Shown here piece after piece: positions 1 to 59,746 of a stretch of DNA of 64,000 nucleotides. The position numbers were made by a program, and so were the translations under genes. The notes below the pieces were generated by a model. That model was given only the letters and a program-made list of their open reading frames with translations. It was not told where the DNA came from and did no database searches. Numbering within the stretch: the stretch's first letter is position 1; each line of letters begins with the position of its first letter. Origin of the DNA: Streptomyces californicus (GTDB lineage: Bacteria > Actinomycetota > Actinomycetes > Streptomycetales > Streptomycetaceae); assembly GCF_000717645.1 (NCBI RefSeq), contig NZ_JNZZ01000013.1:1-64000 (forward strand), in the 5' to 3' direction.

Positions 1-1579
1 GGTCGGGGGCGGGGCCGTCCGGGGCGATGCGCTTTTCCGGCTCGGCGTGGTCCGGATCGGGGCGCTTCTCCGGTTCGGCGTGGTCCGGGGCGGGGCGCTT
101 CTCCGGTTCGGCGTGGTCCGGATCGGGGCGTTCCGGATCGGGCTGCGCCGGGTCGGTGCGTTCCGGTCGGGAGTCGCGCGCGCCTGTGGGCTCGGCGGTG
201 GGCCCGCCCGGGTCGGGCTCGTCGAACGCCGGCTGGGCGTCATGCCACGGGGCGTCCGCGCTGCGTACGCGGCGCGGGGGCCTCGGGGTGCCGCCGGGCG
301 GGTCGGTCGAAGGCTTCTGCGCCCCGTCGCGGGCATCCGCCTCCGATGTCGACGCCGAACGCTGACTGGCCGAGCCACCCGAAGCGGAACGGGAACGCCG
401 GGCCCGGGCGGACGGGGGCTCCGCCGGACCGTCGGCGGGTCGCTGCTGGCTGGCCGAACCGTCCGAGGCGGAACGGGACCGGCGTGGCGGCCGGGCCGCC
501 GGGGGCGCGGCCGACTCGTCCGGCGCGGGCGACTCGTCCGGTGCGGGGCGCTGACTAGCCGAACCACCCGAAGCGGAACGGGAACGACGCGGCGGAGCCG
601 CCGGGGTCCCGCCCGGCGTCGGGGCACCGCCCGGCGTCGGCGAGGTCGCGGGCGGCGTCGCGGGGGCCTCGGGACCGGTCGCCGTGCGCGCCTCGGGACC
701 GGTCGCCGCAGGGGCCTGCGCCCCGGCACCGGTCTCGGTACGCGTCTCCGCCTCCGTAGGCGTGGGGCGCTGGGCCGCCGATCCCTCGCTCGCGCTGCGG
801 GTACGGCGGAGCGGGCGGTCGGCCGCCGTGCGGGCGGCGCGGGCCGGACGGGCGGCGGCCGGGGGGAGCTGGCCCTTCAGGGGCCCCCACTCATTCGGGT
901 CGGGCACTCCGGGCGGAAGCATCGCGCGGCGCTTGGGCCCGGTGTGGCCGTCCGCCGGCTCCCCCGGCTCCTTCGCCCCCGGCCACGCCTTGGCGACCCG
1001 CGCGGCCAGGACGAAGTCCTTACGCAGCGGGTGGCCCTCGAAACCTTCCGGCAGAAGCAGCGGAACGAGGTGGGGGTGGCCGTCGAAAGCCACGCCGAAC
1101 ATCTCGTGCGTCTCGCGTTCGTGCCACGCGGCGCCCGCGTACACGTCGACGGCGCTGGGCAGGACGGCCGCGCCGTGCGGCACGGTCGTCCGGACCATGA
1201 GCCGCCGTACCGACCCCGTGCCCAGGGCCGCGACGTGGGCGCAGACGCGGAAACCGACGCCCGGTTCGTCCACGGCGCTGAGCCAGTCGAAGTAGGTGCA
1301 GCCGAGTTCGTCGCGGGCGGTCCGCAACGCGGTGAGCCAGGTCGCGGCGGGGACGTCGACGGTCAGCAGGTCGTACGCCGACTCCGCGGCGGCCTCGTCG
1401 CCGAACAGGTCGGTGACCGCGTCCGGCAGCCGGTCATACGCCTCGGCCGAAACAGCAGCCTCCCCCGGAACGGCGGGCTCCGCCGGAACGGCCGGCTCCG
1501 CGGCATCGGCCGGAGCGGGCGCGTCGGGAGTATCCGCCGCGTCGGGCGCGGGCGCCGCGTGCGGGTCCTGGTCGCTCAT
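1..1579 (-). CDS. nuoC: NuoC-like 30 kDa subunit of complex I, second cluster; runs off the left edge
   Basis: Peripheral-arm subunit of NADH:quinone oxidoreductase that packs against NuoB and NuoD. The ATG at 1579 overlaps the nuoB stop (ATGA), so translation is coupled. 526 residues lie in the window. After an Ala/Pro/Glu-rich first 35 residues comes the 30 kDa domain, with the signature [11 protein letters not shown] from residue 152 and LRKDF ending near residue 189. The family is usually 170-240 residues. Here the frame stays open for over 300 further residues without another recognisable domain. That tail holds four copies of RRSRSASxGSASQR (residues about 258, 331, 366 and 394; the first copy reads [14 protein letters not shown]) and then three 11-residue repeats starting PDHAEPEKR (487, 498, 509). 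A NuoD domain could still follow beyond the edge. The core is certain; the role of the tail is unknown. Confidence 0.9.
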
Positions 1580-2391
1580 CGCGGACCCTCCTCGTCGGGC
1601 GTCGTGTCCGGCGTGGCGGCCGTGGCCGACGGGTCGGCCGGACGGGCCGGACCAGACGGATCAGCCGGATCGGCCGGTTCGACCGGATCGGCGGGATCGG
1701 CCGGGTCGGCAGGCGGCTTCGGCGCGGTGACCAGGCCGCTGCGCAGGGCGGCCGTGGACGGGGCGCCGCCGGGTGCGACGGAGGCGTACCGCTCGGCGAG
1801 CGACTCGCGCGCGATCTTCTCCTGGAGTTTGAGGATCCCCTGGAGCAGCGCCTCGGGCCGGGGCGGGCAGCCGGGTACGTAGACGTCGACGGGGATGATC
1901 TGGTCGACGCCCTTGGTCACGGAGTACGAGTCCCAGTAGGGGCCTCCGCAGTTGGAGCAGGCGCCGAAGGAGATGACGTACTTCGGTTCGGGCATCTGCT
2001 CGTAGAGCCGCTTCACGGCGGGGGCCATCTTGTCGGTCACCGTGCCGGACACGATCATGAGGTCGGCCTGGCGCGGACCGGGGGCGAACGGGATCACGCC
2101 GAGCCGGATGAAGTCGTGGCGCGCCATGGACGCGGCGATGAACTCGATGGCGCAGCAGGCGAGTCCGAAGTTGAAGACCCAGAGGCTGTAACGGCGGCCC
2201 CAGTTGAGGACGACCTTCATGGGCTCCGGCGCGAGCCGGGAGAGCACGCCGAGGCGCTTGGGCTCGGGGAGCGGGACCGCGCCGGACGACGGCGACGGCG
2301 CGGAAGGCGCCCGCTGACCGGATGGCGACGGAGCCGGAGGCGGGGGCGCGGGCTCCTGCGACGCGGGGGTCGGCCGGCTCGTCAGGCCCAT
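1576..2391 (-). CDS. nuoB: NuoB subunit of complex I (second nuo cluster)
   Basis: Carries the terminal [4Fe-4S] cluster N2 that passes electrons to quinone at the base of the peripheral arm. 271 residues from the ATG at 2391, with a Pro/Ser/Ala-rich first 45 residues. The cluster ligands are visible: the Cys-Cys pair in [10 protein letters not shown], the cysteines of [10 protein letters not shown], and the cysteine of [13 protein letters not shown]. The family core ends near residue 200. It is followed by a Pro-Ala-Asp repeat tail ([13 protein letters not shown]) absent from typical NuoB. The start overlaps the end of nuoA by 10 bp, and the stop overlaps the nuoC start. I place it in the second cluster because the main operon lies at the other end of the window. 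Confidence 0.95.
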
Positions 2392-2807
2392 GCGAGGACG
2401 CCCTTCTTCCATGCGTAGAGCAGTCCCACGGCCAGGAAGCCGAGGAAGATGAACATTTCGACCAGGGTCGTCGCCCCGTATCCGGGCGCCGCGAACACCG
2501 TGGCCCACGGGAACAGGAAGATGGAGTCGACGGCGAAGATCACGTAGAGGAACGCGTAGACGTAGTAGCGGACCTGGGTGTGTGCCCAGCCCTCACCGAC
2601 CGGATCGACGCCGCACTCATAGGTGAGCAGCTTCTCCGGGGTGGGGACGACGGGCCGCAGCAGTCGCCCGGCCCCGAAGGCCACGGCGACGAACAGGACG
2701 CCGATCACGGCGAGCAGGCCGATGAAGGAGTAGCCCCGGAAGTACTCCGGGGCGGCGAGTGCGGTGAATCCGTCCGCCGCACCGGTCATGTCCGTCACGT
2801 CGGCCAC
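2382..2807 (-). CDS. nuoA: NuoA membrane subunit of complex I (second nuo cluster)
   Basis: Small membrane-arm subunit near the quinone site. 141 residues with three hydrophobic segments (about 23-45, 80-103 and 110-132). Between the first two is the conserved loop [16 protein letters not shown], whose YECG motif marks NuoA/ND3. It is the first gene of the leftward nuoA-nuoB-nuoC run, so the promoter should lie in the gap to its right. An internal ATG at 2789 is an alternative start. The N-terminus before the first membrane segment is slightly longer than usual. Confidence 0.95.
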
Positions 2808-3429
2808 GTCCGCCCCTCACTCCCTCGTCGTCCGCGTCTGTCCCGCGCGTCCGTGCTGTCCCACGGGCCGGTCCTGCCCGTGCCGTCCCACGGGTCCGTT
2901 CCGTCCTTGCCGTCCCCTGGGCCAGTTCTGTACGCACGGGAGTCTAGGGCCTGCTAAAGGGGGCGTAAGCAGCCGCGTCGGACATCAGGTGGGGTTATCC
3001 CTCCTTCACTCCCGCCTATGAGCCCCATGGTGGGCGCGGGTCCGGCCCGGCAGGCTGGGGGTATGACCATGAGCCCTCCCCCGGCGGCCCCGAGCGGTTG
3101 CCGCCCGGCTCGTCCTGGACTCTCCGGAGGGCGGCCCGACGACCGTCACCGCCGAACCGCCCTGGCGCGTCCGAGGCTCCGACCGCCCGCTCGCGGGGCC
3201 TGTGGCCGCAGCACCTTCCGATCGCAGGACCCCTGGGGGCCCGAGTACCGGGGTGGGGAAAACCCCCGGTCGAATACGGAGAAGGGCCCCATGGTGCGGA
3301 AAGCCACTGGCCAGCACCCTTGAGGAAGAACAGTGAGCCGCCCCCACACGCGGCCCTCGTACCCCGAGCGCAGCCCGAGCACAGCCCACTGAGACTGAGA
3401 CAGAGACAGAAACGGAACGGACGGAACTC
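2808..3429. other. Intergenic region between divergent nuoA and the histidine kinase
   Basis: 622 bp with no convincing intact gene. It must hold the leftward nuo promoter and the rightward kinase promoter, but neither is clear enough to place. On the minus strand a purine-rich AAGGAGG stretch near 3000 precedes a 13-codon open frame that could be a leader peptide; this is weak. The stretch 3094-3168 is a fragment of a histidine kinase gene, listed separately. Confidence 0.5.
3094..3168 (+). pseudogene. Remnant of a second histidine kinase 3' end
   Basis: Read in the frame of 3094, this piece gives SPEGGPTTVTAEPPWR, nearly matching the extreme C-terminus of the intact kinase next door (SPAGGPTTVTAELPWR). 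The DNA match is also close, with about 32 of 37 bases identical over the core. No H-box or ATP-binding domain precedes it and no start is in reach, so it cannot be functional. It is either a decayed tandem paralogue or a small duplication of the neighbour's 3' end. Confidence 0.6.
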
Positions 3430-4791
3430 ATGGCCATGGCATACGGACCGGACACGCGGGACCGGGAGCATCGGGGTGCCGGCCCGGGCTTCGGAGCGAA
3501 GGCTCCGGTGACACGTTTCCTCCCGGCTCCGCTGCGCGCGCCCCTGGAGGGCCGCACCTGGCGCGAGCTGCTCTACACACTGCTGAGTTTCCCGCTCAGC
3601 ACGGTCATGTTCTGCTTCTCGATCACCATGGTGTCGATGAGCGCGGGCCTGCTGGTCACCTTCATCGGCATACCGGTGCTGGCGGTCGGGCTCGCCTTCT
3701 GCCGGGGTTTCGGCGTGCTGGAGCGGCACCGGGCGCGCGCTCTGCTGGGCGTGGAGGTGGATGACCCGGAGCGGGTGCGGGGGAAGACCGGCGGCGCGAT
3801 GTCGTGGATGGGGTCGATCCTCAAGAGCGGGGTCTCCTGGCGCCACCTGCTGTACACGCTGCTGCACTTCCCCTGGTCCACGTTCACGTTCGTCGTCGCC
3901 ATCACGGTCTGGTCGACCGGCCTGACCGCGTTGACGTATCCGCTGTGGTTCTGGCTCTTCCCGCTGTTCGGGGGGCAGGGCGGAATCCAGCTGTACGGGG
4001 ACGAGACCCATCGGGAGTATCTGGACACGCCCTTCGAGCTGGCGGTGGCCGGCGGTATCGGACTGGTGCTGGTGATGGCGGCGCCGTGGATCGTGCGCGG
4101 GCTGCTGGTGGTGGACCGCCTGATGGTCACCGGGCTGCTGGGCCCGTCCACGCTGGCGACCCGGGTCTCCGAGCTGGAGTCGGACCGGGGTGTGGTCGTG
4201 GACACGGCCGCCGCCGACCTGCGCCGCATCGAGCGGGACCTGCACGACGGGGCCCAGGCCCGGCTGGTCGCCCTCGCCATGGACCTGGGCCTGGCGAAGG
4301 AGAAGCTGACCGACGACCCGGAGGCCGCCGCCCGGATGGTGGACGAGGCGCACAGCGAGGTGAAGGTGGCGCTTCAGGAGCTACGCGACCTGGCCCGGGG
4401 CATCCACCCCGCCGTCCTCACCGACCGGGGCCTGGACGCCGCACTCTCCTCCATATCCTCGCGCTGCACAGTCCCGGTCCAGGTCTCGGTGGACCTGGAC
4501 ACACGGCCGGCGCAGGCGATCGAGGGCATCGCGTACTTCACCGTCTCGGAGCTGCTCCAGAACATCAGCAAGCACTCCCGGGCCACCCGGGCGACGGTCG
4601 ACGTGTGGCGGGCGGCCGACCGGCTGATGCTCCAGGTCACGGACAACGGCCGGGGCGGGGCGTCACCGGAGTCCGGCGGCGGTCTGGCCGGGCTGGCCGA
4701 GCGTCTGGACGCCGTGGACGGGGTCCTCGTGGTCGACTCCCCGGCGGGCGGCCCGACGACGGTCACGGCCGAGCTTCCCTGGCGGGGCTGA
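3430..4791 (+). CDS. Two-component sensor histidine kinase, NarL/DesK-type with putative sensor membrane domains
   Basis: Membrane sensor kinase, probably acting on the response regulator that follows. 453 residues. The N-terminal half has two related membrane units, each opening with a variant of WRELLYTLLSFP / WRHLLYTLLHFP (residues about 40 and 137), as in the 'putative sensor' domain of actinobacterial kinases. The HisKA_3 dimerisation box follows: RRIERDLHDGAQARL, with phospho-acceptor His272. The C-terminal ATPase has the N-box (ELLQNISKHSRA), the G1 box DNGRGG and GGGLAGLAERLD. The sensed signal cannot be read from the sequence. The neighbours (nuo, korAB) hint at redox or carbon-flux control, which is inference. 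Confidence 0.92.
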   Translation: MAMAYGPDTRDREHRGAGPGFGAKAPVTRFLPAPLRAPLEGRTWRELLYTLLSFPLSTVMFCFSITMVSMSAGLLVTFIGIPVLAVGLAFCRGFGVLERHRARALLGVEVDDPERVRGKTGGAMSWMGSILKSGVSWRHLLYTLLHFPWSTFTFVVAITVWSTGLTALTYPLWFWLFPLFGGQGGIQLYGDETHREYLDTPFELAVAGGIGLVLVMAAPWIVRGLLVVDRLMVTGLLGPSTLATRVSELESDRGVVVDTAAADLRRIERDLHDGAQARLVALAMDLGLAKEKLTDDPEAAARMVDEAHSEVKVALQELRDLARGIHPAVLTDRGLDAALSSISSRCTVPVQVSVDLDTRPAQAIEGIAYFTVSELLQNISKHSRATRATVDVWRAADRLMLQVTDNGRGGASPESGGGLAGLAERLDAVDGVLVVDSPAGGPTTVTAELPWRG

Positions 4792-4808
4792 CCCGCACCC
4801 GTACCGCC

Positions 4809-4855
4809 GCCCTCTTCGTGCCCGCCTCTCCCTGCTGGGCGGGCACGAAGAGGGC
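4809..4855. terminator. 18-bp perfect hairpin after the kinase gene
   Basis: Arms 4809-4826 and 4838-4855 are perfect complements (GCCCTCTTCGTGCCCGCC), with an 11-nt loop. It starts 17 bp after the kinase stop and sits between kinase and regulator. The regulator may therefore have its own promoter or be read by leakage. No T-run follows, as is common in Streptomyces. Confidence 0.75.
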
Positions 4856-5003
4856 CCGGGGCCGTGGTTATCCACAGGCCGGCCCGGCCGTTGCCCTTCC
4901 CTGGGATGCTTGGGCGGTCGGGGCGTGACGCGCAGTGGTCGGGCGCGGTGCGTACGGGGTCGCGGAGAGCGCGGCGTATTCGGAACAGTGGGGGCTCGCA
5001 GTC

Positions 5004-5684
5004 GTGCAGAACGTGGAGAACAGGGTGCGTGTGGTCATCGCCGAGGATTCGGTCCTGCTCAGGGAGGGACTCACCCGGCTGCTCACCGACCTCGGGCACG
5101 ACGTGGTCGCCGGGGTCGCCGACGCCGAGGCGCTGCTCAAGAAGGTGGCGGAGCTCGACGCCCAGCAGGCGCTTCCGGATGTGGTGGTCGCCGATGTCCG
5201 GATGCCGCCCACGCACACCGACGAAGGGGTGCGCGCGGCGGTGCGGCTGCGGAAGGACTACCCGGACGTCGGGGTGCTGGTCCTCTCGCAGTACGTGGAG
5301 GAGCGGTACGCGACCGAGCTGCTGGCGGGCAGCAGCAACGGGGTGGGCTATCTGCTGAAGGACCGGGTGGCCGAGGTCCGGGAGTTCGTGGACGCCGTCG
5401 TCCGGGTGGCCGGGGGCGGCACGGCGCTGGACCCGGAGGTGGTGGCTCAGCTGCTGGGCCGCAGCCGCAAGCAGGACGTGCTGGTCGGGCTGACGCCGCG
5501 CGAGCGGGAGGTCCTCGGTCTGATGGCGGAGGGCCGGACCAACTCCGCCATCGCCCGGCAGCTCGTGGTGAGCGACGGGGCGGTCGAGAAGCACGTCAGC
5601 AACATCTTCCTGAAGCTGGGGCTCTCGCCCAGCGACGGGGACCACCGGCGCGTCCTCGCCGTACTGACCTATCTGAACACCTAG
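5004..5684 (+). CDS. LuxR/NarL-family response regulator
   Basis: DNA-binding partner of the upstream kinase. I chose the GTG at 5004 (226 residues) because GTGGGGG lies about 9 bp upstream and the receiver domain starts within 10 residues; longer in-frame starts exist as far up as 4935. Receiver domain: acidic pair in VVIAEDS, phospho-acceptor Asp in VVVADVRMPP, and the conserved Lys in GYLLKDR. The C-terminal LuxR helix-turn-helix (LTPREREVLGLMAEGRTNSAIA, here split as LTPREREVLGLM then AEGRTNSAIA) is followed by EKHVSNIFLKLGL. The gap to the kinase is about 210 bp and holds a strong hairpin, so co-transcription is not assured. Confidence 0.92.
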   Translation: MQNVENRVRVVIAEDSVLLREGLTRLLTDLGHDVVAGVADAEALLKKVAELDAQQALPDVVVADVRMPPTHTDEGVRAAVRLRKDYPDVGVLVLSQYVEERYATELLAGSSNGVGYLLKDRVAEVREFVDAVVRVAGGGTALDPEVVAQLLGRSRKQDVLVGLTPREREVLGLMAEGRTNSAIARQLVVSDGAVEKHVSNIFLKLGLSPSDGDHRRVLAVLTYLNT

Positions 5685-5687
5685 AAA

Positions 5688-5704
5688 TCTGACACCCTGT
5701 CAGA
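5688..5704. terminator. Small hairpin directly after the response regulator
   Basis: TCTGACA / TGTCAGA with a 3-nt loop, 4 bp past the stop. The stem is short (7 bp) and A+T-richer than its surroundings. It may be a weak terminator or an operator. Confidence 0.4.
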
Positions 5705-5761
5705 TACGGAGGCTGGGCGGGACACGGGCCCCGGAAGCGTCGAACAGAAACCACGGGCCCG

Positions 5762-5872
5762 CCGGACGGGCTCGCCGGGCCGAAACCGGGCGGACTCACC
5801 GGACGGGCTCACCGGGCCGACACCGGCCGGACTCGCCGGACGGGCCCACCGGGCGGACGCCGGCCGGACCCG
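5762..5872. repeat. Three 37-bp tandem repeats
   Basis: Units begin at 5762, 5799 and 5836, each opening CCGGACGGGC. The first two are nearly identical and the third has diverged. They lie between the response regulator and korA and encode nothing recognisable. Confidence 0.7.
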
Positions 5873-5877
5873 CCCCG

Positions 5878-5913
5878 GGCGGACGCCGGGTGGGCCCACC
5901 GGGGGCGTCCGCC
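5878..5913. terminator. Nested hairpin downstream of the 37-bp repeats
   Basis: The outer arms GGCGGACGCC (5878-5887) and GGCGTCCGCC (5904-5913) enclose the perfect palindrome GGTGGGCCCACC (5889-5900). This gives a stem of about 16 bp with one small bulge. It likely ends transcription from the two-component genes before korA. Confidence 0.6.
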
Positions 5914-6181
5914 GGGTGTCACGGAGGTGCGGTGGTGTTGCGGGAGCGCTTCGGGAGCACGGCGGGGGCCCCGGGGTGTCCGCCGTCCGCCGCGTGGGCA
6001 CCTCTTGATCGAGCGGGACGCGGGGAGAACGACACTCGGGAGATGGAGAAGGCGGGGGGGCAGAGCCAGGTCGAGACCTAGGCCCAAAGGCGCAGGGGGC
6101 AGTCCCCTCCGTCACCCGTCCTACGGGCCCGTAAAACATGACAGAACCAGCGAAAAGGGTGTCTCAAAACAGCGTCCACCA

Positions 6182-6187
6182 TATGAT
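6182..6187 (+). promoter_or_regulatory. Candidate -10 element for korAB
   Basis: TATGAT sits in an unusually A+T-rich patch (about 6133-6190) of an otherwise very G+C-rich gap, 100 bp before the korA start. No good -35 is visible; GTGTCT is the best candidate. The patch could be bound by an activator. Confidence 0.35.
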
Positions 6188-6286
6188 CGATCCCTGGAAG
6201 GCCCCGTACGCGGACGTAGGGTGGCCTCTGGGATCGCCGGCTGGCCGGACGGTTCCGAACAGCCGCCCCAAGGGAGGTCCAGTTCA

Positions 6287-8251
6287 GTGACGAGCCAGGT
6301 CAGTAGCGCGGCGGAGAAGGCCGATGAGGCCAATGCCGCCGCCCTCGGGGGCCAGCGAGCCCCCCTGTCAGGTACGACGGGCACCACGGGCGGCGACGGG
6401 AAGGAAGTCCGCCGCCTGGACCGGGTGATCATCCGCTTCGCGGGTGACTCGGGTGACGGCATGCAGCTCACGGGTGACCGGTTCACGTCGGAGACGGCGT
6501 CGTTCGGCAACGACCTGTCCACCCTGCCGAACTTCCCCGCCGAGATCCGCGCTCCCGCGGGGACTCTGCCGGGCGTCTCCTCGTTCCAGCTCCACTTCGC
6601 GGACCACGACATCCTCACCCCGGGTGACGCCCCGAACGTGCTGGTGGCGATGAACCCCGCCGCGTTGAAGGCGAACATCGCGGACGTGCCGCGCGGCGCG
6701 GAGATCATCGTGAACACCGACGAGTTCACGAAGCGGCCGATGGCGAAGGTCGGGTATGCGACCAGTCCGCTGGAGGACGGCTCGCTGGAGGCGTACAACG
6801 TGCACCCGGTGCCGTTGACGACGCTGACGCTGGAAGCGCTGAAGGAGTTCGGGCTCCCCCGCAAGGAGGCCGAGCGCTCCAAGAACATGTTCGCGCTGGG
6901 CCTGCTGTCGTGGATGTACAACCGGCCGACCGAGGGGACGGAGACGTTCCTGCGGGCCAAGTTCGCGAAGAAGCCGCAGATCGCCGAGGCGAACGTGGCG
7001 GCGTTCCGGGCGGGGTGGAACTTCGGGGAGACGACCGAGGACTTCGCGGTCTCCTACGAGGTCGCCCCGGCCTCGCAGGCGTTCCCCACGGGGACGTACC
7101 GCAACATCTCGGGGAACCTGGCGCTGTCCTACGGGCTGATCGCCGCCGGGCAGCTGGCGGACCTGCCGCTCTACCTGGGGTCGTATCCGATCACCCCGGC
7201 CTCGGACATCCTGCACGAGCTGTCCCGGCACAAGAACTTCGGTGTGCGGACCTTCCAGGCCGAGGACGAGATCGCGGGGATCGGCGCGGCTCTCGGTGCG
7301 GCGTTCGGCGGGTCGCTGGCGGTGACGACGACGTCCGGACCCGGTGTGGCGCTCAAGTCGGAGACCATCGGGCTCGCGGTCTCGCTGGAGCTGCCCCTGC
7401 TGATCGTCGACATCCAGCGCGGCGGCCCCTCGACGGGTCTGCCGACCAAGACGGAGCAGGCCGATCTGCTCCAGGCGATGTACGGCAGGAACGGCGAGGC
7501 CCCGGTTCCGGTGGTGGCGCCGCGCACCCCGGCCGACTGCTTCGACGCGGCGATCGACGCGGCGCGGATCGCGCTGACGTACCGGACGCCGGTGTTCCTG
7601 CTCTCCGACGGCTACCTCGCCAACGGTTCCGAGCCCTGGCGGATCCCGGAGACGGACACGCTGCCCGATCTGAAGACGCCGTTCGCCACCGGCCCGAACC
7701 ACACGGCGGCCGACGGCACCGAGGTGTTCTGGCCCTACAAGCGCGACCCGCGGACCCTGGCCCGCCCCTGGGCCGTCCCCGGGACGGCCGGGCTCGAACA
7801 CCGTATCGGCGGGATCGAGAAGCAGGACGGCACCGGCAACATCTCCTACGACCCGGCCAACCACGACTTCATGGTCCGCACCCGGCAGGCCAAGATCGAC
7901 GGCATCGAGGTCCCCGACCTGGAGGTCGACGACCCGGCCGACGCGGCGACGCTGGTGCTCGGCTGGGGCTCGACGTACGGGCCGATCACCGCCGCCGTGC
8001 GCCGTCTGCGTGCCTCCGGCGCGTCCATCGCCCAGGCCCACCTGCGCCACCTCAACCCCTTCCCGAAGAACCTCGGCGAGGTGGTGAAGCGCTACGACAA
8101 GGTCGTCGTCCCGGAGATGAACCTCGGTCAGCTCGCGATGCTGCTGAGAGCGAAGTACCTGGTGGACGCCCACAGCTACAACCAGGTCAACGGAATGCCG
8201 TTCAAGGCGGAGCAGCTCGCCACGGCCCTCAAGGAGGCCATCGATGCCTGA
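6287..8251 (+). CDS. korA: 2-oxoacid:ferredoxin oxidoreductase, fused gamma-alpha subunit (KorA type)
   Basis: With KorB it oxidatively decarboxylates 2-oxoglutarate (or another 2-oxoacid) to the acyl-CoA and reduces ferredoxin. The GTG at 6287 has AGGGAGG 9 bp upstream. 654 residues. The N-terminal gamma (acceptor) domain starts at about residue 44, with FAGDSGDGMQLTGDRF. The alpha domain starts near residue 265, with GSYPITPASDIL, TFQAEDEIAGIGAALGAAFG and IDIQRGGPSTGLPTKTEQADL-like text (reads VDIQRGGPSTGLPTK). No ferredoxin-type cysteine cluster is present, as expected for this two-subunit class. The gene overlaps korB by 8 bp. Substrate preference is taken from family knowledge and not shown by the sequence. 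Confidence 0.95.
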   Translation: MTSQVSSAAEKADEANAAALGGQRAPLSGTTGTTGGDGKEVRRLDRVIIRFAGDSGDGMQLTGDRFTSETASFGNDLSTLPNFPAEIRAPAGTLPGVSSFQLHFADHDILTPGDAPNVLVAMNPAALKANIADVPRGAEIIVNTDEFTKRPMAKVGYATSPLEDGSLEAYNVHPVPLTTLTLEALKEFGLPRKEAERSKNMFALGLLSWMYNRPTEGTETFLRAKFAKKPQIAEANVAAFRAGWNFGETTEDFAVSYEVAPASQAFPTGTYRNISGNLALSYGLIAAGQLADLPLYLGSYPITPASDILHELSRHKNFGVRTFQAEDEIAGIGAALGAAFGGSLAVTTTSGPGVALKSETIGLAVSLELPLLIVDIQRGGPSTGLPTKTEQADLLQAMYGRNGEAPVPVVAPRTPADCFDAAIDAARIALTYRTPVFLLSDGYLANGSEPWRIPETDTLPDLKTPFATGPNHTAADGTEVFWPYKRDPRTLARPWAVPGTAGLEHRIGGIEKQDGTGNISYDPANHDFMVRTRQAKIDGIEVPDLEVDDPADAATLVLGWGSTYGPITAAVRRLRASGASIAQAHLRHLNPFPKNLGEVVKRYDKVVVPEMNLGQLAMLLRAKYLVDAHSYNQVNGMPFKAEQLATALKEAIDA

Positions 8252-9317
8252 CACCGAGGAACTGCACCACAACGACCTGCTGCAGCTGGTGCCCAAGGCC
8301 GAGGCGAAGCAGTCCATGAAGGACTTCAAGTCCGACCAGGAAGTGCGCTGGTGCCCCGGCTGCGGCGACTACGCGGTGCTCGCCGCCGTCCAGGGCTTCA
8401 TGCCGGAGCTGGGCCTCGCCAAGGAGAACATCACCTTCGTCTCCGGTATCGGCTGCTCCTCCCGGTTCCCGTACTACATGAACACCTACGGGATGCACTC
8501 CATCCACGGCCGCGCCCCGTCCATCGCGACCGGGCTCGCCACCTCGCGCCGCGATCTGTCGGTATGGGTGGTCACGGGTGACGGCGACGCGCTCTCCATC
8601 GGCGGCAACCACCTGATCCACGCCCTGCGCCGCAACGTCAACCTCAAGATCCTGCTGTTCAACAACCGGATCTACGGGCTGACGAAGGGCCAGTACAGCC
8701 CCACCTCCGAGCTGGGCAAGATCACCAAGTCGACGCCGATGGGCTCGCTCGACGCGCCCTTCAACCCGGTCTCGCTCGCGCTGGGCGCGGAGGCGACGTT
8801 CGTCGCCCGGACCGTCGACTCCGACCGCAAGCACCTCACCAGCGTGCTGCGCGCCGCCGCCGAGCACCCGGGCACAGCACTGGTGGAGATCTACCAGAAC
8901 TGCAATATCTTCAACGACGGCGCGTTCGAGGTCCTCAAGGACAAGGAGCAGGCCGCGGAGGCCGTCATCCGGCTCGAACACGGACAGCCGATCCTCTTCG
9001 GTTCCCAGGAGCCCAAGGGCGTCGTCCGCGATCCGGCCACCGGTGACCTCAAGGTCGTGGCCGTCACGGACGAGAACCGTTCGCAGGTGCTGGTCCACGA
9101 CGCGCACGCGGAATCGCCCACGACGGCGTTCGCGCTGTCCCGGATCGCCGACGCCGACACGTTGCACCACACCCCCATCGGGGTGCTGCGCAGCGTGGAG
9201 CGGCCCGTCTACGACACGCTGATGGCGGACCAGTTGGACGCCGCCGTGGAGCAGAGCGGCAAAGGCGACCTCGGCGCGCTCCTGGCGGGCACGGACACCT
9301 GGACGGTCGTCGGCTGA
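8244..9317 (+). CDS. korB: 2-oxoacid:ferredoxin oxidoreductase, beta subunit (KorB type)
   Basis: Catalytic thiamine-diphosphate and [4Fe-4S] subunit. 357 residues. The N-terminal EVRWCPGCGDYAV supplies two of the cluster cysteines and GIGCSSRFPYYM another. The TPP/Mg motif is GDGDALSIGGNH with the later NNRIYGLTKGQ. The start overlaps the korA end by 8 bp, so the two are translated together in equal amounts. A very strong hairpin follows. No ferredoxin gene is adjacent, so the electron acceptor is encoded elsewhere. Confidence 0.95.
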   Translation: MPDTEELHHNDLLQLVPKAEAKQSMKDFKSDQEVRWCPGCGDYAVLAAVQGFMPELGLAKENITFVSGIGCSSRFPYYMNTYGMHSIHGRAPSIATGLATSRRDLSVWVVTGDGDALSIGGNHLIHALRRNVNLKILLFNNRIYGLTKGQYSPTSELGKITKSTPMGSLDAPFNPVSLALGAEATFVARTVDSDRKHLTSVLRAAAEHPGTALVEIYQNCNIFNDGAFEVLKDKEQAAEAVIRLEHGQPILFGSQEPKGVVRDPATGDLKVVAVTDENRSQVLVHDAHAESPTTAFALSRIADADTLHHTPIGVLRSVERPVYDTLMADQLDAAVEQSGKGDLGALLAGTDTWTVVG

Positions 9318-52740: not shown

Positions 52741-54405
52741 CTACCGCACGAAGACCCCCGCCTGGCTCGCCAGGTCCAGGAAGTACTGCGGGGCCAGGCC
52801 CAGCACCAGGGTGACGGCGACGCCGACCGCGATCGTCGTCATGGTCAGCGGGGACGGGACGGCGACCGTGGGGCCGTCCGCCTTCGGCTCGCTGAAGAAC
52901 ATGAGGACGATCACGCGGATGTAGAAGAACGCCGCGACGGCCGAGGAGATCACACCGACGACGACCAGCGCCCCGGCCCCGCCCTCGGCGGCCGCCTTGA
53001 ACACCGCGAACTTGCCGGAGAACCCGGAGGTCAGCGGGATGCCCGCGAAGGCCAGCAGGAACACCGCGAAGACCGCAGCGACCAGCGGCGAGCGGCGGCC
53101 GAGCCCGGCCCACTTCGACAGGTGGGTGGCCTCGCCGCCCGCGTCCCGCACCAGCGTGACGACGGCGAACGCGCCGACGGTCACGAAGGAGTAGGCCAGC
53201 AGGTAGAAGAGGACCGAGGAGATGCCCTCCGGGTTGGCCGCGATGACGCCGGCGAGGATGAAGCCCGCGTGCGCGATCGAGGAGTAGGCCAGCAGCCGCT
53301 TGATGTCGGTCTGGGTGATCGCGACGATCGCTCCGGCCAGCATCGTGACGATGGCCACCGCCCACATGACCGGCCGCAGGTCCCAGGTGAGGCCCGGCAG
53401 CGCCACGTACAGCAGGCGCAGCAGGGCGCCGAACGCGGCGACCTTCGTCGCGGCGGCCATGAAGCCGGTGACCGGGGTCGGGGCGCCCTGGTACACGTCC
53501 GGGGTCCACATGTGGAACGGGACCGCGCCGACCTTGAAGAGCAGGCCGGTCAGGATCATCGCGCCGCCGATGAGCAGCAGCGCGTCGTTGCCCATGGTGT
53601 CGGCGAGGGCCGGGTCGATCTCCAGGACCGAGCCGTCGACGACCTTGGCGATCTGGGCGTACGACAGGGAGCCGGAGTAGCCGTAGACGAGGGCGATCCC
53701 GAAGAGCATGAACGCGGAGGAGAACGCGCCGAGCAGGAAGTACTTCACGGCCGCCTCCTGCGACATCAGCCGCTTGCGGCGGGCGACGGCGCACAGGAGG
53801 TAGAGCGGGAGCGAGAAGACTTCCAGCGCGATGAAGAGGGTCAGCAGGTCGTTGGCGGCCGGGAAGACCAGCAGCCCCGCCACCGAGAAGAGCAGCAGCG
53901 GGAAGACCTCGGTGGTGGTGAAACCGGCCCGCACCGCGGCCTTCTCGCCCTCACCGCCGGGGACGGACCCGGGCTGGGCGGCGAACGAGTCGACGTGGTT
54001 GCCGCCGCTGCCGGGGTCGAGCCGGCGCTCGGCGAAGGTGAACACCGCCACCATGGCGACCAGGAGGATGGTGCCCTGGAGGAACAGGGTGGGCCCGTCG
54101 ATCGCGATGGCGCCCATGGCCGCGATCTGCGCCTTCGTGGTGCCGTACCCGCCGGCGGCGAGGCCGACGATCGCGGCGAACGAGGCGGCGACCGCCACCA
54201 CGCTCAGGAAGAGCTGGGAGTGGTACCGGGCCCGGCGCGGCACGAACGCCTCCACCAGGATGCCGAGGACGGCCGCGACCACGATGATCAGGACCGGCAT
54301 GAGCTGGGTGTACTCGATCTTCGGCATGGTGAACGAGTCGCCCGGCGCCGCCGATGTCACCCCGCTCGCCGTCGTCCACAGACTGTGGACAGCTGTTGCG
54401 CTCAC
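52741..54405 (-). CDS. nuoN: NADH-quinone oxidoreductase subunit N
   Basis: Antiporter-like proton-pumping subunit of the membrane arm. 554 residues; the GTG at 54405 overlaps the nuoM stop (GTGA). About 14 membrane segments with a proton-antiporter core: AVKYFLLGAFSSAFMLFG, GLLFKVGAVPFHMWTPDVYQ (conserved Lys), TQTDIKRLLAYSSIAHAG. An inserted loop of about 30 residues (around residues 130-160, DPGSGGNHVDSFAAQPGS) between early membrane segments is actinobacteria-like. It is the last gene of the operon. Confidence 0.95.
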   Translation of the reverse strand: MSATAVHSLWTTASGVTSAAPGDSFTMPKIEYTQLMPVLIIVVAAVLGILVEAFVPRRARYHSQLFLSVVAVAASFAAIVGLAAGGYGTTKAQIAAMGAIAIDGPTLFLQGTILLVAMVAVFTFAERRLDPGSGGNHVDSFAAQPGSVPGGEGEKAAVRAGFTTTEVFPLLLFSVAGLLVFPAANDLLTLFIALEVFSLPLYLLCAVARRKRLMSQEAAVKYFLLGAFSSAFMLFGIALVYGYSGSLSYAQIAKVVDGSVLEIDPALADTMGNDALLLIGGAMILTGLLFKVGAVPFHMWTPDVYQGAPTPVTGFMAAATKVAAFGALLRLLYVALPGLTWDLRPVMWAVAIVTMLAGAIVAITQTDIKRLLAYSSIAHAGFILAGVIAANPEGISSVLFYLLAYSFVTVGAFAVVTLVRDAGGEATHLSKWAGLGRRSPLVAAVFAVFLLAFAGIPLTSGFSGKFAVFKAAAEGGAGALVVVGVISSAVAAFFYIRVIVLMFFSEPKADGPTVAVPSPLTMTTIAVGVAVTLVLGLAPQYFLDLASQAGVFVR

Positions 54406-55973
54406 TTGGCGGCCTCCACCTCGGGCTGGGGGTCCTTCTTCTGTACGTCGGACATGGTGTGCTCCACCGCCGGGTTGACGACCTCGGTGAGCGGCTTCGG
54501 GAAGACGCCCAGGAAGATCAGCACGGCGATCAGCGGGACCGCGACCGCCAGCTCACGGGCCTTGAGGTCCGGCATGGAGCGGACCGATTCCCGCACCGGG
54601 CCGGTCATCGTGCGCTGGTAGAGGACCAGGACGTAGAGCGCGGCGAGCACGATGCCGGAGGTGGCGATGACGCCGGCCACCGGGTACGCGCTGAACGTGC
54701 CGACCAGGACCAGGAACTCGCTGACGAACGGGGCGAGTCCGGGCAGCGACAGGGTGGCGAGTCCGCCGATGAGGAACGTCCCGGCCAGCACGGGGGCGAC
54801 CTTCTGCACCCCGCCGTAGTCCGCGATGAGCCGCGAGCCGCGCCGGGTGATGAGGAAGCCGGCGACCAGGAGCAGCGCGGCCGTCGAGATGCCGTGGTTG
54901 ACCATGTAGAGCGTGGCGCCCGACTGGCCCTGGCTCGTCATCGCGAAGATGCCGAGGATGATGAAGCCGAAGTGCGAGATCGAGGCGTAGGCGATGAGCC
55001 GCTTGATGTCGCGCTGGCCGACCGCGAGGAGCGCCCCGTACACGATGGAGATCAGCGCCAGGGTGATGACCACCGGCGTCGCCCACTTGCTGGCCTCCGG
55101 GAAGAGCCCGAGGCAGAAGCGGAGCATCGCGAAGGTGCCGACCTTGTCGACGATCGCGGTGATCAGCACGGCGACCGGGGCGGTCGCCTCGCCCATCGCG
55201 TTGGGCAGCCAGGTGTGCAGCGGCCACAGCGGGGCCTTCACCGCGAAGGCGAAGAAGAAGCCGAGGAACAGCCACCGCTCGGTGCTGGTCGCCATCTCCA
55301 GGGAGCCGTTGGCGCGGGCCTCGGCGATCTCGGAGAGCGAGAAGCTGCCCGCGACCACGTAGAGGCCGATGACCGCGGCCAGCATGATCAGCCCGCCGGC
55401 CAGGTTGTAGAGGAGGAACTTGACCGCCGCGTACGAGCGCTGGGTTGCGGCGCTCTCGTCGGTGCCCGCGTGGGCCCGGTCGCCGAAGCCTCCGATGAGG
55501 AAGTACATCGGGATGAGCATGGCTTCGAACAGGATGTAGAAGAGGAAGACGTCGGTGGCGACGAACGACAGGATCACCATGGCCTCGACCATGAGGATCA
55601 GGGCGAAGAAGCCCTGCGTCGGGCGCCAGCGCGTGGACGTCGTCTCCAGGGGGTCCGCGTCGTGCCAGGCCGCGGCGATCACGAACGGGATCAGCAGCGC
55701 GGTGAGGCCCAGCAGCGCCACCCCGATGCCGTCGACGCCCAGTTCGTAGCGGACGCCGAAGTCGGCGATCCAGGCCCGGGACTCGGTGAGCTGGTAGCGG
55801 TCGCCGCCCGGCTCGAAGCGGAGGAAGACGACCGCCGCCAGGACGAGCGTGCCCAGCGAGAAGAGCAGCGCGAGCCATTTGGCCGCGGTGCGCCGCGCGG
55901 CGGGGACGGCGGCGGTGGCGATCGCGCCGATCGCCGGGAGCGCCGCCGTCGCGGTCAGGAGGGGAAAGGACAT
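54402..55973 (-). CDS. nuoM: NADH-quinone oxidoreductase subunit M
   Basis: Central proton-pumping subunit. 523 residues, 14 membrane segments. Conserved elements: ELGVDGIGVALLGLTALLIP, FYILFEAMLIPMYFLIGGFG (key Glu), FAFAVKAPLWPLHTWLPNAM (key Lys), VGQRDIKRLIAYASISHFGF. The start lies 4 bp after the nuoL stop. A charged tail ends the protein (KKDPQPEVEAAK). Confidence 0.96.
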   Translation of the reverse strand: MSFPLLTATAALPAIGAIATAAVPAARRTAAKWLALLFSLGTLVLAAVVFLRFEPGGDRYQLTESRAWIADFGVRYELGVDGIGVALLGLTALLIPFVIAAAWHDADPLETTSTRWRPTQGFFALILMVEAMVILSFVATDVFLFYILFEAMLIPMYFLIGGFGDRAHAGTDESAATQRSYAAVKFLLYNLAGGLIMLAAVIGLYVVAGSFSLSEIAEARANGSLEMATSTERWLFLGFFFAFAVKAPLWPLHTWLPNAMGEATAPVAVLITAIVDKVGTFAMLRFCLGLFPEASKWATPVVITLALISIVYGALLAVGQRDIKRLIAYASISHFGFIILGIFAMTSQGQSGATLYMVNHGISTAALLLVAGFLITRRGSRLIADYGGVQKVAPVLAGTFLIGGLATLSLPGLAPFVSEFLVLVGTFSAYPVAGVIATSGIVLAALYVLVLYQRTMTGPVRESVRSMPDLKARELAVAVPLIAVLIFLGVFPKPLTEVVNPAVEHTMSDVQKKDPQPEVEAAK

Positions 55974-55977
55974 GTGA

Positions 55978-57873
55978 TCAGACCGCCCTCATCAGCAGGG
56001 TCGCGGCGATGACGACCGCCGTACCGCCGAACATCGAGACCGCGTAGGTGCGGGCGTAGCCGTTCTGGAGCTTGCGCATCCGGCCGGAGAGCCCGCCGAC
56101 CGACGCGGCCGTGCCGTTGACGACGCCGTCGACCAGGGAGTGGTCCACGTAGACCAGCGAGCGGGTGAGGTGCTCGCCGCCGCGGACCAGGACCACGTGG
56201 TTGAAGTCGTCCTGGAGGAGATCGCGGCGGGCGGCCCGGGTGAGGACCGAGCCGCGCGGGGCCACGACCGGGACCGGCTTGCGGCCGTACATCGCCCAGG
56301 CGATGCCGACGCCGACGAGCAGGGCCACGACGGTGGCCCCGGTGACCGTGGCCGCGCTCAGCGGGGAGTGCCCGTGGTCGTAGCCGGTGACCGGCTCCAG
56401 CCAGCTCACGAACCGGTCGCCGATCGCGAAGAACCCGCCCGCGAACACCGAACCGAAGGCCAGCACGATCATCGGGATCGTCATCGACTTCGGGGACTCG
56501 TGCGGGTGCGGCTCGTGTCCCTCGGCGTCGGGCTGCCAGCGCTTCTCGCCGAAGAACGTCATCAGCATCACGCGCGTCATGTAGAACGCGGTGATCGCGG
56601 CGCCCAGCAGAGCCACGGAGCCGAGGATCCAGCCCTCGGCGCCGCCCTTGGCGAAGGCCGCCTCGATGATCTTGTCCTTGGAGAAGAAGCCGGAGAGGCC
56701 GGGGAAGCCGATGATGGCCAGGTAGCCGAGGCCGAAGGTGATGAAGGTGACCGGCATGTACTTCCGCAGGCCGCCGTAGCGGCGCATGTCGACCTCGTCG
56801 TTCATGCCGTGCATGACGGAGCCCGCGCCGAGGAAGAGCCCGGCCTTGAAGAACCCGTGCGTCACCAGGTGCATGATCGCGAACGCGTAGCCGATGGGGC
56901 CGAGGCCGGCGGCCAGGATCATGTAGCCGATCTGCGACATCGTCGATCCGGCCAGCGCCTTCTTGATGTCGTCCTTCGCGCAACCGACGATCGCACCGAA
57001 CATCAGGGTGACCGCGCCGACGATGACGACGACGAGCTGGGCGTCCGGGGCGGCGTTGAAGATCGCGCCGGAGCGGACGATCAGGTAGACGCCGGCGGTG
57101 ACCATGGTCGCGGCGTGGATGAGGGCGGAGACCGGGGTCGGGCCCTCCATCGCGTCGCCGAGCCAGGACTGCAGCGGCACCTGGGCCGACTTGCCGCAGG
57201 CGGCCAGCAGCAGCATCAGGCCGATGGCCGTCAGCTTGCCCTGGCCGGTCTCGCCCGCCGTCTCCAGCACCGGCCCGAAGGCGAAGGTGCCGAAGGTGGT
57301 GAACATCAGCATGATGGCGATCGACAGGCCGATGTCACCGACCCGGTTGACCAGGAACGCCTTCTTCGCGGCGGTGGCCGCGGAGGGCTTGTGCTGCCAG
57401 AAGCCGATGAGCAGGAACGACGCCAGACCGACGCCCTCCCACCCGACGTACAGCAGCAGGTAGTTGTCGGCGATGACGAGGATGAGCATCGCCGCGAGGA
57501 ACAGGTTCAGGTAGCCGAAGAAGCGGCGCCTGCGCTCGTCGTGCTCCATGTAGCCGATGGAGTAGATGTGGATCAGCGTGCCCACACCGGTGATGAGCAG
57601 GACGAACGTCATCGACAACTGGTCGAGCTGGAAGGCGATGTCGGCCTGGAAGCCCTCCACCGGAATCCAGCTGAACAGGTGCTGGTGCAGGGCCCGGTCC
57701 TCGGCGCCCTTCCCCAGCATGTCGGTGAAGAGGATCAGTCCGACGACGAACGAGGCGGCGGCCAGGACGGTGCCGAGCCAGTGGCCCGTCCGGTCCAGCC
57801 GGCGGCCGCCGCAGAGCAGGACCGCCGCTCCGAGCAGGGGCGCCGCGACGAGCAGCGCAATCAGGTTCTCCAC
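55978..57873 (-). CDS. nuoL: NADH-quinone oxidoreductase subunit L
   Basis: Distal proton-pumping subunit with the long lateral helix. 631 residues. Conserved elements: [38 protein letters not shown] (key Glu), [20 protein letters not shown] and [40 protein letters not shown]. The C-terminal part carries the lateral helix and a final membrane anchor. It begins 12 bp after the nuoK stop. Confidence 0.96.
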
Positions 57874-57885
57874 GTTTCCGACCCC

Positions 57886-58185
57886 TTACAGCTTCATCAG
57901 GCTGGCGTCGTCGACCGAGGCCGAGTGGCGGGAACGGAACAGCGACACGATGATCGCGAGTCCGACGACGACTTCCGCGGCGGCGACGACCATCGTGAAG
58001 AACGCGACGATCTGCCCGTCGAGGTTGCCGTGCATCCGGGAGAACGTGACGAGCGCCAGATTGCAGGCGTTGAGCATCAGCTCGACGCACATGAACACCA
58101 CGATCGCGTTCCGCCGGATCAGCACCCCGGAGGCGCCGATCGCGAACAGCAGGGCCGCGAGGTAGAGGTAGTTGACCGGGTTCAC
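57886..58185 (-). CDS. nuoK: NADH-quinone oxidoreductase subunit K
   Basis: Small three-helix subunit of the proton path (ND4L). 99 residues from the GTG at 58185, which overlaps the nuoJ stop (GTGA). Key glutamates lie in [17 protein letters not shown] and in [15 protein letters not shown]. The length is exactly that of the family. Confidence 0.95.
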
Positions 58186-59051
58186 TTGGCGGCCTCCGAA
58201 TTCTCCGCAGCGGCGGCGGGGCCCGCCCCGCGCGTCACGGCGTCCGCGTCCTCGCGCCCGAGCCGCTCCCCGGAGCGCTGCTCCAGGGCCTTGAGGTCGG
58301 CGAGGGCCTCCCGCGAGACGTCGCGGACCTGGCCGCGCTCGCGCAGGGTCTGCATGACGGTCAGCTCGGACGGCGTGCCGTCGGGGAGGAGACCGGGGAT
58401 ATCCACCGCGTTGTGCCGGGCGTAGACGCCGGGGGCGGGGAGCGGCGGCAGGTGCTTGCCCTCGCGGACCCGCTGCTCGGCCATCTCCCGCTGGGTCTTG
58501 GCCCGTTCGGTGCGCTCGCGGTGCGTGAGCACCATCGCGCCGACGGTGGCGGTGATGAGCAGGGCGCCGGTGATCTCGAAGGCGAAGACGTACTTGGTGA
58601 AGATGAGGTTGGCGAGGCCCTCGACGTTGCCCCCGTGCCGGGCGTTGGCGGCGCCCAGCCCGTTGAACGTGGAGAGCGAGGCGTTGCCGATGCCGCCGAT
58701 CAGCAGGACGCCGAAGCCGAGGGCGCACCCGAGGGCCAGCCAGCGCTGCCCCTTGAGGGTCTCCTTGAGGGAGTCCGCGGCGGTGACGCCGACGAGCATG
58801 ACGACGAAGAGGAACAGCATCATGATCGCGCCCGTGTAGACGACGATCTGGACGATGCCGAGGAAGTACGCCCCGTTGGCGAGGTAGAACACCGCGAGGA
58901 CGATCATGGTTCCGGCGAGTGAGAGCGCGCTGTGCACGGCCCTCTTCAGCAGGACCGTGGAGAGCGCCCCGATCACGGCGACGGTGCCCAGGATCCAGAA
59001 CTGGACGGCCTCGCCGGTCGAGGTGGCGGTGGCTGCGGCCAGCGCGTTCAC
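58182..59051 (-). CDS. nuoJ: NADH-quinone oxidoreductase subunit J, with extended C-terminus
   Basis: Membrane subunit ND6, with the pi-bulge helix [17 protein letters not shown]. 289 residues from the GTG at 59051, which overlaps the nuoI stop. Five membrane segments end near residue 180. The remaining ~110 residues are a charged cytoplasmic tail ([20 protein letters not shown] and later [19 protein letters not shown]), which is about 100 longer than E. coli NuoJ and commonly seen in Streptomyces. Confidence 0.95.
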
Positions 59052-59746
59052 GCGCCCACCCCCTTGTCGTGCCGGGTGGCGTCGGCGGCCCGGGTGGACT
59101 CGACGGGGTCCTCGTCGAGCTTGTCCGACGCGCCCTTGGAGACGGCTTGCTGGGGGACGGTGCCGGGGGCGGCCTCGGTGACCAGGCCCCGGTAGTAGTC
59201 CTGTTCGTCCATGCCGGGGTAGATCGCGTGCGGGCTGTCGACCATGCCTTCCTCCAGGCCCGCGAGCAGCTCGTCCTTGGTGTAGATGAGGCTTTCGCGG
59301 GTGGTGTTGGCCAGCTCGAACTCGTTCGTCATCGTCAGCGCCCGGGTGGGGCACGCCTCGATGCAGAGTCCGCACAGGATGCAGCGCGCGTAGTTGATCT
59401 GGTAGACGCGGCCGTAGCGCTCGCCCGGGGAGTAGCGCTCCTCCTCGGTGTTGTCCGCGCCCTCCACGTAGATCGCGTCGGCGGGACAGGCCCAGGCGCA
59501 CAGCTCGCAGCCGACGCACTTCTCCAGGCCGTCCGGGTGGCGGTTGAGCTGGTGGCGGCCGTGGAAGCGGGGCGCCGTCACCTTCGGCGTCTCCGGGTAC
59601 TGCTCGGTGAGCCGCTTCTTGAACATGGCCTTGAAGGTCACGCCGAAGCCGGCCACCGGGTTCTGGAACTTCTCGCCCGACCCCTCCGCCCGGCCCGAGG
59701 ACCCAGCGGATTCCGATGAGCCCGTGAGCTCTGGTTTCTCAGACAC
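59048..59746 (-). CDS. nuoI: NADH-quinone oxidoreductase subunit I
   Basis: Peripheral subunit with two [4Fe-4S] clusters (N6a, N6b). 232 residues; the GTG at 59746 has AAAGGAGG 6 bp upstream and overlaps the nuoH end by 8 bp. Cluster motifs: [16 protein letters not shown] and [17 protein letters not shown] Ser/Glu-rich start of about 25 residues and a Lys/Asp/Glu-rich tail extend the usual core. Confidence 0.96.

Follow-up and report, generated by a model that had tools for sequence, protein, structure and literature searches.

A second nuo cluster at a contig end

The stretch analysed here (the window) covers the opening 64 kb of contig C13 in the draft genome of Streptomyces californicus (7.78 Mb in 104 contigs), and our subject is a second set of genes for respiratory complex I that begins at its left end; we call this set nuo2 and mark its genes and products with the suffix 2, whereas those of the ordinary operon, nuo1, carry the suffix 1. 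A sequence-only reading of this DNA had described korAB as lying close to a separate nuoA-nuoB-nuoC run at the left end, with the main nuo operon at the other, and open reading frames (ORFs) and Pfam domains confirmed this layout. The features are as follows.

2..1579, minus strand: nuoC2, 5' part (ORF; PF00329, Complex1_30kDa, E 2.7e-32)
about 1576..2391, minus strand: nuoB2 (PF01058, Oxidored_q6, E 7.9e-29; N2 cluster cysteines present)
2382..2807, minus strand: nuoA2 (PF00507, Oxidored_q4, E 5.3e-32)
3045..3174, plus strand: remnant of an AbrC1-type sensor kinase (tblastn with the intact 401-aa kinase of the related locus L018)
3430..4791, plus strand: sensor histidine kinase, AbrC2 type (PF13796, PF07730, PF02518)
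4935..5684, plus strand: response regulator, LuxR type (AbrC3 type; PF00072, PF00196)
6287..8251, plus strand: korA, alpha subunit of a 2-oxoacid:acceptor oxidoreductase (PF01855, PF01558; TIGR03710, 662 bits, over cut-off)
8244..9317, plus strand: korB, beta subunit (PF02775; top NCBIfam models of KorB/PorB types, all below cut-offs)
52741..64000, minus strand: ordinary nuo operon of 14 genes, of which the window holds nuoN1 through part of nuoF1 (comparison operon)

The NuoC domain occupies residues 74-194 of nuoC2 and is followed by a long low-complexity tail, within which the contig ends; the nuoB2 ORF is open to 2508, with a likely start at 2391. The ordinary operon, which includes E, F and G, runs from ~69 kb of C13 down to 52.7 kb, going on past the window edge with E1, D1, C1, B1 and A1. 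Since base 1 of the window is base 1 of C13, the 12 kb leftwards of the window, proposed by the sequence-only reading as the place to look for nuoD to nuoN, is absent from this contig. The continuation was found in part: Pfam places nuoH2-I2-J2-K2-L2-M2-N2 at the end of contig C9 (62-8230), but nuoD is absent from the cluster. Gene order in relatives suggests that C13 and C9 are joined. A search of the same genome for antiporter-like domains returned eight matches, of which three belong to the main operon, three lie at C9:3193-8005 and two are on C1.

We compared 81 related loci, 80 of them obtained with a nuoB2 search (78 titled Streptomyces or Actinacidiphila) and one from Nonomuraea; 71 extend to nuoH2 and 70 to nuoN2. 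Across these loci the cluster genes are A2, B2, C2, H2, I2, J2, K2, L2, M2 and N2, in the same order in the 70 that reach N2, with order judged by matches and not by reading frames (the top NuoM2 match of L020 lies inside nuoL2, and L083 starts after nuoA2). As the arrangement recurs in the 80 loci of the nuoB2 search and in other families, it is not due to chance. The stop of nuoC2 and the start of nuoH2 overlap, at a median of -3 bases in the 71 loci that hold both genes; spacing exceeds 60 bases in only four, one gap measuring 1042 bases.

No match to NuoD, NuoE, NuoF or NuoG was found at E 1e-5 in the 81 related loci, and 20 nuo2 stretches from further genomes of the same class (two of them Streptomyces) gave no match to NuoD, NuoE or NuoG. 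The S. californicus genome has a single NuoF-family gene (PF01512), which belongs to nuo1, and no NuoE or NuoG was found by the cluster, near which alone these two were sought. The predicted lack of nuoE, nuoF and nuoG in the left cluster is thus borne out by its relatives and by the one NuoF-family gene genome-wide. Having no NuoE/F/G module, nuo2 does not belong with the 14-subunit NADH dehydrogenases, whereas the 11-subunit set A, B, C, D and H to N is fully encoded according to Pfam, with D2 on a different contig.

Some features of individual subunits and loci are recorded here for completeness. The low-complexity tail of nuoC2 extends a median of 302 residues past the core (range 31-579; 71 loci among L017-L097), and NuoB2 of the window carries proline-rich and acidic extensions. 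Genome G022 has a NuoF-like gene, below the cut-offs of the NuoF models, placed divergently beside nuoA2 at a place often taken by korAB (L119, 8178-9677). Two NuoH2 genes occur on separate contigs of G034 (C40 and C63; L123), possibly reflecting two copies of the cluster. The Nonomuraea record (L017), which comes from a plasmid collection and is named plasmid I, is 11.85 Mb long with 10 annotated features and is probably a chromosome.

The displaced NuoD subunit

A PF00346 search of the S. californicus genome returned two NuoD genes only, NuoD1 in the main operon and NuoD2 on contig C11 (34044-35183). NuoD2 is full-length (380 residues) and directly follows a gene of the Methyltransf_28 (MidA/NDUFAF7) family. 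Six genomes with nuoD2 and nuoH2 on one contig (G018, G057, G089, G095, G112 and G133) place them 184-289 kb apart, and NuoD2 was never found inside the nuo2 cluster in any locus of the class that was read. That nuoD2 had merely dropped out where the assembly breaks between C13 and C9 was considered and ruled out, because nuoC2 and nuoH2 overlap in relatives and NuoD2 lies on C11.

We surveyed 148 genomes of the class, counting NuoH2 at 60% identity or more and calling NuoD2 from a match that reached the query end (lowest identity 40%, in G116) or a fragment of at least 77% identity. NuoH2 was present in 41 genomes, NuoD2 in at least 67 and both in 39, a co-occurrence with a Fisher p of 3e-15 when kinship is ignored; the only two genomes with NuoH2 and no NuoD2 have completeness values of 72% and 80%.

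A search of 159 genomes across the phylum supplied 20 matching loci of other classes, drawn by their NuoD2 matches. In 17 of these the NuoD2 clade provides the fourth gene of an A-B-C-D-H-I-J-K-L-M-N cluster that has no E, F or G match within the stretch read, and nuoN1 lies upstream of nuoA2 in 11 of the 17; of the remaining loci, two carry a different cluster, of a type with Tyr at the quinone site (see below), and one an orphan NuoD2. In a quick tree, which has SH-aLRT support only and several long branches flagged and from which the fragments of G021 and G097 were left out, the 65 NuoD2 rows of the class form one starred clade nested among rows that, with few exceptions, come from in-cluster genes. 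With the NuoD2 clade in the cluster in other classes and the rows of this class nested inside, we conclude that nuoD2 left the cluster, and its in-cluster place in 17 of 20 loci argues that nuo2 and NuoD2 together make an 11-subunit complex I without the NADH module.

Orphan NuoD2 loci (L126-L131, L137-L140, L144, L145 and L198-L211) mostly have an altered quinone loop. This loop is intact in 4 of 27 genomes without nuo2, compared with 38 of 38 with it; on the tree the losses reduce to about two changes, a sign test on four independent pairs was not significant (median p 1), and loop erosion in nuo2-less genomes is weak evidence for a tie to nuo2. Apparent Mrp-type antiporter genes follow nuoD2 in G028 (L142, 3782-9538), the only such case in 20 NuoD2 stretches of the class. 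Loci L167, L168, L221, L223 and L226-L228, all of other classes, hold clusters whose NuoD is of the Tyr type and whose stretches, as far as read, gave no match to E, F or G; they represent another EFG-less type within the phylum, and a more ordinary one. An AlphaFold2 model of the NuoD2 homologue P0011, built from an 18-row alignment, had a mean pLDDT of 52 and was not used.

Conserved cluster ligands and an altered quinone site

In three sets of sequences (81 NuoB2 and 71 NuoI2, 19 and 20, and 17 and 17), no covered sequence has lost any of the four ligands of iron-sulfur cluster N2 in NuoB2 or of the eight ligands of N6a and N6b in NuoI2; one NuoB2 is uncovered at the first two ligands. A ninth cysteine of NuoI2, residue 65 (L016, 1030-1611), is likewise conserved wherever the sequence is covered. 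Beyond its cluster ligands NuoB2 has a further cysteine, residue 148, in 80 of 81, 9 of 19 and 16 of 17 members of these sets.

NuoD2 keeps the loop GPQHP[SA]THG with the quinone His in all 38 nuo2-bearing genomes of the class (G021 excluded). In complex I, a Tyr binds the quinone head group (PMC8119997; Y144 in Yarrowia, PMC8042128), and at this position NuoD2 has Trp: in 38 of 38 class genomes with nuo2, in 28 of 28 without it and in 18 of the 20 loci of other classes, where the two Tyr cases belong to the other cluster type. NuoD1, by comparison, has Tyr there in all 20 sequences fetched and in the S. californicus genome, and across 20 more loci of the phylum Tyr occurs 18 times and Trp twice, both times in a NuoD of the NuoD2 type. 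Residues were placed by alignment to solved 49-kDa subunits, which is gap-free in this part. The Trp counts apply to this phylum; a homologue search with the NuoD2 alignment as query listed the best 120 of 7988 matches, all at least 72% identical to the first query row. NuoD2 therefore retains the His loop of the complex I quinone site and lacks its Tyr. This Tyr-to-Trp change sets it apart from complex I at large, although subunit homology and synteny still favour the complex I family.

The product of the gene before nuoD2 matches Methyltransf_28 (PF02636) at E 2.5e-15. Among the 148 class genomes, 59 have both a midA-family gene and NuoD2, eight have NuoD2 alone, five midA alone and 76 neither, with kinship ignored. 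The two genes share a contig in 52 of the 59 pairs, never more than 12 kb apart, and lie on different contigs in seven. A weak midA match (29-38% identity) also follows nuoN2 in five loci of other classes (L162, L163, L164, L173 and L233). The mitochondrial family member, NDUFAF7, dimethylates the Arg of an HRGxE motif (R85 in human, R121 in Yarrowia), a residue with an ordering role for N2 as well as for the quinone site (PMC3829151, PMC8042128). This Arg is present in 84 of 84 NuoD2-type sequences that cover it, and the orphan NuoD2 proteins of nuo2-less class genomes have both the Arg and the Trp in 28 of 28 cases, whereas NuoD1 has Thr in its place (HTG) in 21 of 21 (20 fetched and our own). 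Because the Arg is found in NuoD2 and replaced in NuoD1, only NuoD2 of the two could be a MidA substrate at this residue, and the gene pairing suggests that MidA methylates it. The pair resembles NDUFAF7 and NDUFS2 of mitochondria in joining a Methyltransf_28 protein with a NuoD that bears the target Arg in HRGxE (PMC3829151, PMC8042128), although for NuoD2 the methylation is a predicted one.

A genome in which no other complex I was found

In genome G128 (60 contigs, with a completeness rating of 100%), nuoA2 to nuoN2 (L110) and NuoD2 were all matched, and 3 kb from nuoD2 lies a midA-like gene (L132) that was found by tblastn at 37% identity and missed by PF02636. No second NuoD or NuoH match, that is, no NuoD1 or NuoH1, was found in this genome, nor was any NuoF-family, KorB, POR_N or FrhB match; 14 control genomes had the NuoF family in 9, FrhB in 3 and POR_N in 10. 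If the complex works in G128, it must rely on NuoD2 and do without both KorAB and the usual NADH module.

KorAB and the regulators beside nuo2

The KorA/KorB pair holds the Pfam domains POR_N, POR, PFOR_II and TPP_enzyme_C, and the POR domains of the alpha subunit and the TPP domain of the beta subunit predict a 2-oxoacid:ferredoxin oxidoreductase, of which a homologue in M. tuberculosis has been described (PMC2773412). KorA lies beside nuo2 in 73 of the 81 related loci, the other eight reaching a contig edge first; in the 20 further stretches of the class it is adjacent in 11, replaced or absent from the flank seen in six and unresolved in three. KorB occurs in 117 of the 148 class genomes, 80 of which have no NuoH2, and is found with NuoH2 in 37 of 41 genomes versus 80 of 107 without (Fisher p 0.04, kinship ignored). 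KorB was not found in four NuoH2 genomes; in one of them, G140, korA is matched 2.5 kb away from nuoH2.

For 59 of the 80 nuo2-less KorB genomes, those with NuoH1 among the matches listed, KorB and NuoH1 could be placed relative to each other: they are within 25 kb in 35, farther apart on the same contig in six and on different contigs in 18. The row nuo1-korAB-nuo2 occurs in six class genomes (L108, L114, L115, L116, L117 and L118) and is read as an old order in the class; no korAB match was found in the stretches read of the 20 other-class loci. As korAB also lies beside nuo1 in genomes without nuo2, adjacency is a poor argument for a dedicated pair, and we rejected it as proof of one. Of the ferredoxin-fed module proposed from the sequence, the ferredoxin-type donor remains plausible given the lack of E, F and G, while the partnership specific to KorAB went unsupported.

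The regulatory genes of the window correspond to AbrC1/C2/C3 of S. coelicolor (PMC9739823, PMC4428217). In the AbrC1-type remnant, residues 368-400 of the kinase match at E 2e-8 and residues 7-33 weakly (E 0.04), and the second kinase is intact; L018 has two AbrC-type sensor kinases, the first of them intact (401 aa). The nuo2 genes of S. coelicolor change in expression studies (PMC9239103, PMC3897704), and in one mutant they rise together with the AbrC genes (PMC9239103). Control of nuo2 by the two-component system beside it, which the sequence-only reading raised, would be a possibility. That cluster (SCO4599-SCO4608) is the same as ours, lying beside AbrC and, by locus number, SCO4594/4595 (PMC9239103, PMC9739823, PMC8981147); it is said in print to lack C, D, E, F, G and L and to be of unclear function, whereas here C and L were found and D was located elsewhere. 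Literature searches of limited depth turned up nothing on the displacement of NuoD, on its link with MidA or on its Trp.

Proposed complex and alternative explanations

We consider it likely that nuoA2-B2-C2, nuoH2-N2 on C9 and nuoD2 on C11 encode one 11-subunit complex I without the NADH module, with a ferredoxin-type carrier as its most likely donor. In this proposal nuoD2 started out as gene four of the cluster, a place it keeps in other classes, and in the class of the window it lies elsewhere, near midA; MidA would most likely dimethylate the HRGxE Arg of NuoD2 during assembly. A reduced carrier of the ferredoxin type would most likely deliver electrons to NuoI2 (N6a and N6b); from there they would move on to N2 in NuoB2 and reduce menaquinone in a pocket formed by NuoB2, NuoD2 (with His kept and Tyr changed to Trp) and NuoH2, and proton pumping would proceed via NuoL2, NuoM2 and NuoN2. 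The lack of NuoE, NuoF and NuoG with the cluster makes a ferredoxin-type donor plausible and, with no NuoF-type or FrhB-type partner, a small soluble protein is to be expected as donor; on balance we favour ferredoxin or a similar carrier in that role. KorAB may be one source of reduced ferredoxin in this organism without being an obligate partner, but it is doubtful that it is the main source of the reduced carrier in Streptomyces.

As a tentative extension, the NuoD2 clade might stand for a functional type of its own within complex I: having Trp for the Tyr that binds and protonates quinone, and a dedicated Arg methylase, it would link a ferredoxin-type carrier to the quinone pool by a different chemistry and could possibly serve as the sole complex I. 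Such chemistry might consist of protons supplied by another route, electrons running back to ferredoxin or insensitivity to inhibitors of the quinone site.

Several points weigh against the 11-subunit proposal. At least 28 of the 107 class genomes that lack NuoH2 still contain NuoD2, which can thus occur apart from nuo2 and may serve some other role. With its Trp the complex might reduce quinone poorly or not at all, and since the HRGxE Arg of E. coli is present yet unmethylated (PMC8042128), the presence of the Arg alone is no proof of methylation. The host also has a full NuoD1, with which a hybrid complex may form, and the NuoF-like gene of G022 makes NAD(P)H input to nuo2 a possible option there. 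Finally, G128 is one draft genome, and the genomes surveyed are phylogenetically dependent on one another.

One alternative, built on the sequence-only reading, is that KorAB reduces a ferredoxin that nuo2 oxidises, the two acting as a dedicated respiratory pair for 2-oxoglutarate. KorA adjacency in both sets of class loci, the slightly commoner KorB in genomes with NuoH2 and the korA match of G140 speak for such a pair, but the location of korAB no more than 25 kb from nuoH1 in 35 of 59 placed nuo2-less genomes, the six further stretches with other genes or no KorAB in the flank, the absence of KorB and POR_N matches from G128 and the lack of korAB matches in the 20 other-class loci all tell against it, and we now think it unlikely. 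More improbable still is that nuo2 subunits hybridise with the ordinary complex I, to be completed by NuoD1, E, F and G with altered pumping or affinity in development, as proposed for S. coelicolor (PMC9239103). Most NuoH2 genomes do have a second, NuoH1-type match; however, C and L, which that paper counts as missing, were found here, synteny in other classes assigns NuoD2 to the cluster, and G128 combines nuo2 and NuoD2 with no NuoD1, NuoH1 or NuoF match.

Quinone-site inhibitors are made by actinomycetes, and nuo2 might be a stand-by complex I whose Trp confers tolerance of such antibiotics. Piericidin A and aureothin contact the corresponding Tyr in a Thermus structure (PMC8119997), and Trp is fixed in the NuoD2 sequences read, but nuo2 has no NADH module to back up, and the Trp, being common to other classes, predates Streptomyces; we regard this explanation as very improbable. 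Reverse operation, in which the proton-motive force drives electrons from menaquinol to ferredoxin, also for a reductive KorAB, P450s or desaturases, would fit the missing NADH module, the intact NuoI2 ligands, the altered quinone pocket and the adjoining 2-oxoacid:ferredoxin enzyme, but the 11-subunit enzyme of D. hafniense is read as a menaquinone reducer (PMC11238625), and we hold this direction to be improbable. There is least to be said for a decaying relic that assembles no complex, which we judge extremely unlikely: one subunit is displaced, NuoB2 and NuoC2 have odd extensions and the quinone Tyr is lost, but the cluster ligands are conserved across families and classes, the S. coelicolor genes change in the expression studies cited above, and gene order is the same in all 70 loci that reach N2.

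Relation to known enzymes and significance

Streptomyces are aerobes, and nuo2 with NuoD2 is a known kind of enzyme, complex I without the NADH module, in an unusual form; its anatomy is solid and its function a proposal. The closest likeness in print, the 11-subunit complex I of PMC11238625, has the same subunits without E, F and G and counts ferredoxin among its donor candidates; by contrast, ours has nuoD outside the cluster, Trp for Tyr, a linked MidA and, in the organism of the window, a 14-subunit complex I as well. The NDH-1 of cyanobacteria and chloroplasts likewise has 11 core subunits and no NADH module, with ferredoxin described as its donor (PMC11238625). NuoD2 and NuoI2, however, score higher with bacterial Nuo models than with those of NdhH and NdhI. 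NdhH also retains the quinone Tyr.

NuoD2 matches the model of FpoD, from the F420H2 dehydrogenase (Fpo), end to end, although below the cut-off, but FpoF (FrhB family, PF04432) was found in none of 10 genomes searched, with 3 of 14 controls positive, and F420H2 input via an FrhB-type subunit was rejected for this reason. A group 4 [NiFe] hydrogenase was also rejected: at what we take to be the two places of the NiFe-binding Cys motifs in the large subunit, NuoD2 has HRGAEK and GDIDK, with no Cys.

What has so far been called a partial cluster of unclear function would, with its likely missing NuoD, become a complete enzyme that can be tested in a genetically tractable organism. Its natural Tyr-to-Trp change would probe the need for this Tyr as proton donor, a debated step of the mechanism, and the pair of NuoD paralogues, only one of which has the methylatable Arg, would offer a natural way to ask what purpose NDUFAF7-type methylation serves. 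If the proposal is true, a complex of the NuoD2 type can be the sole complex I of a cell, without any NADH module.

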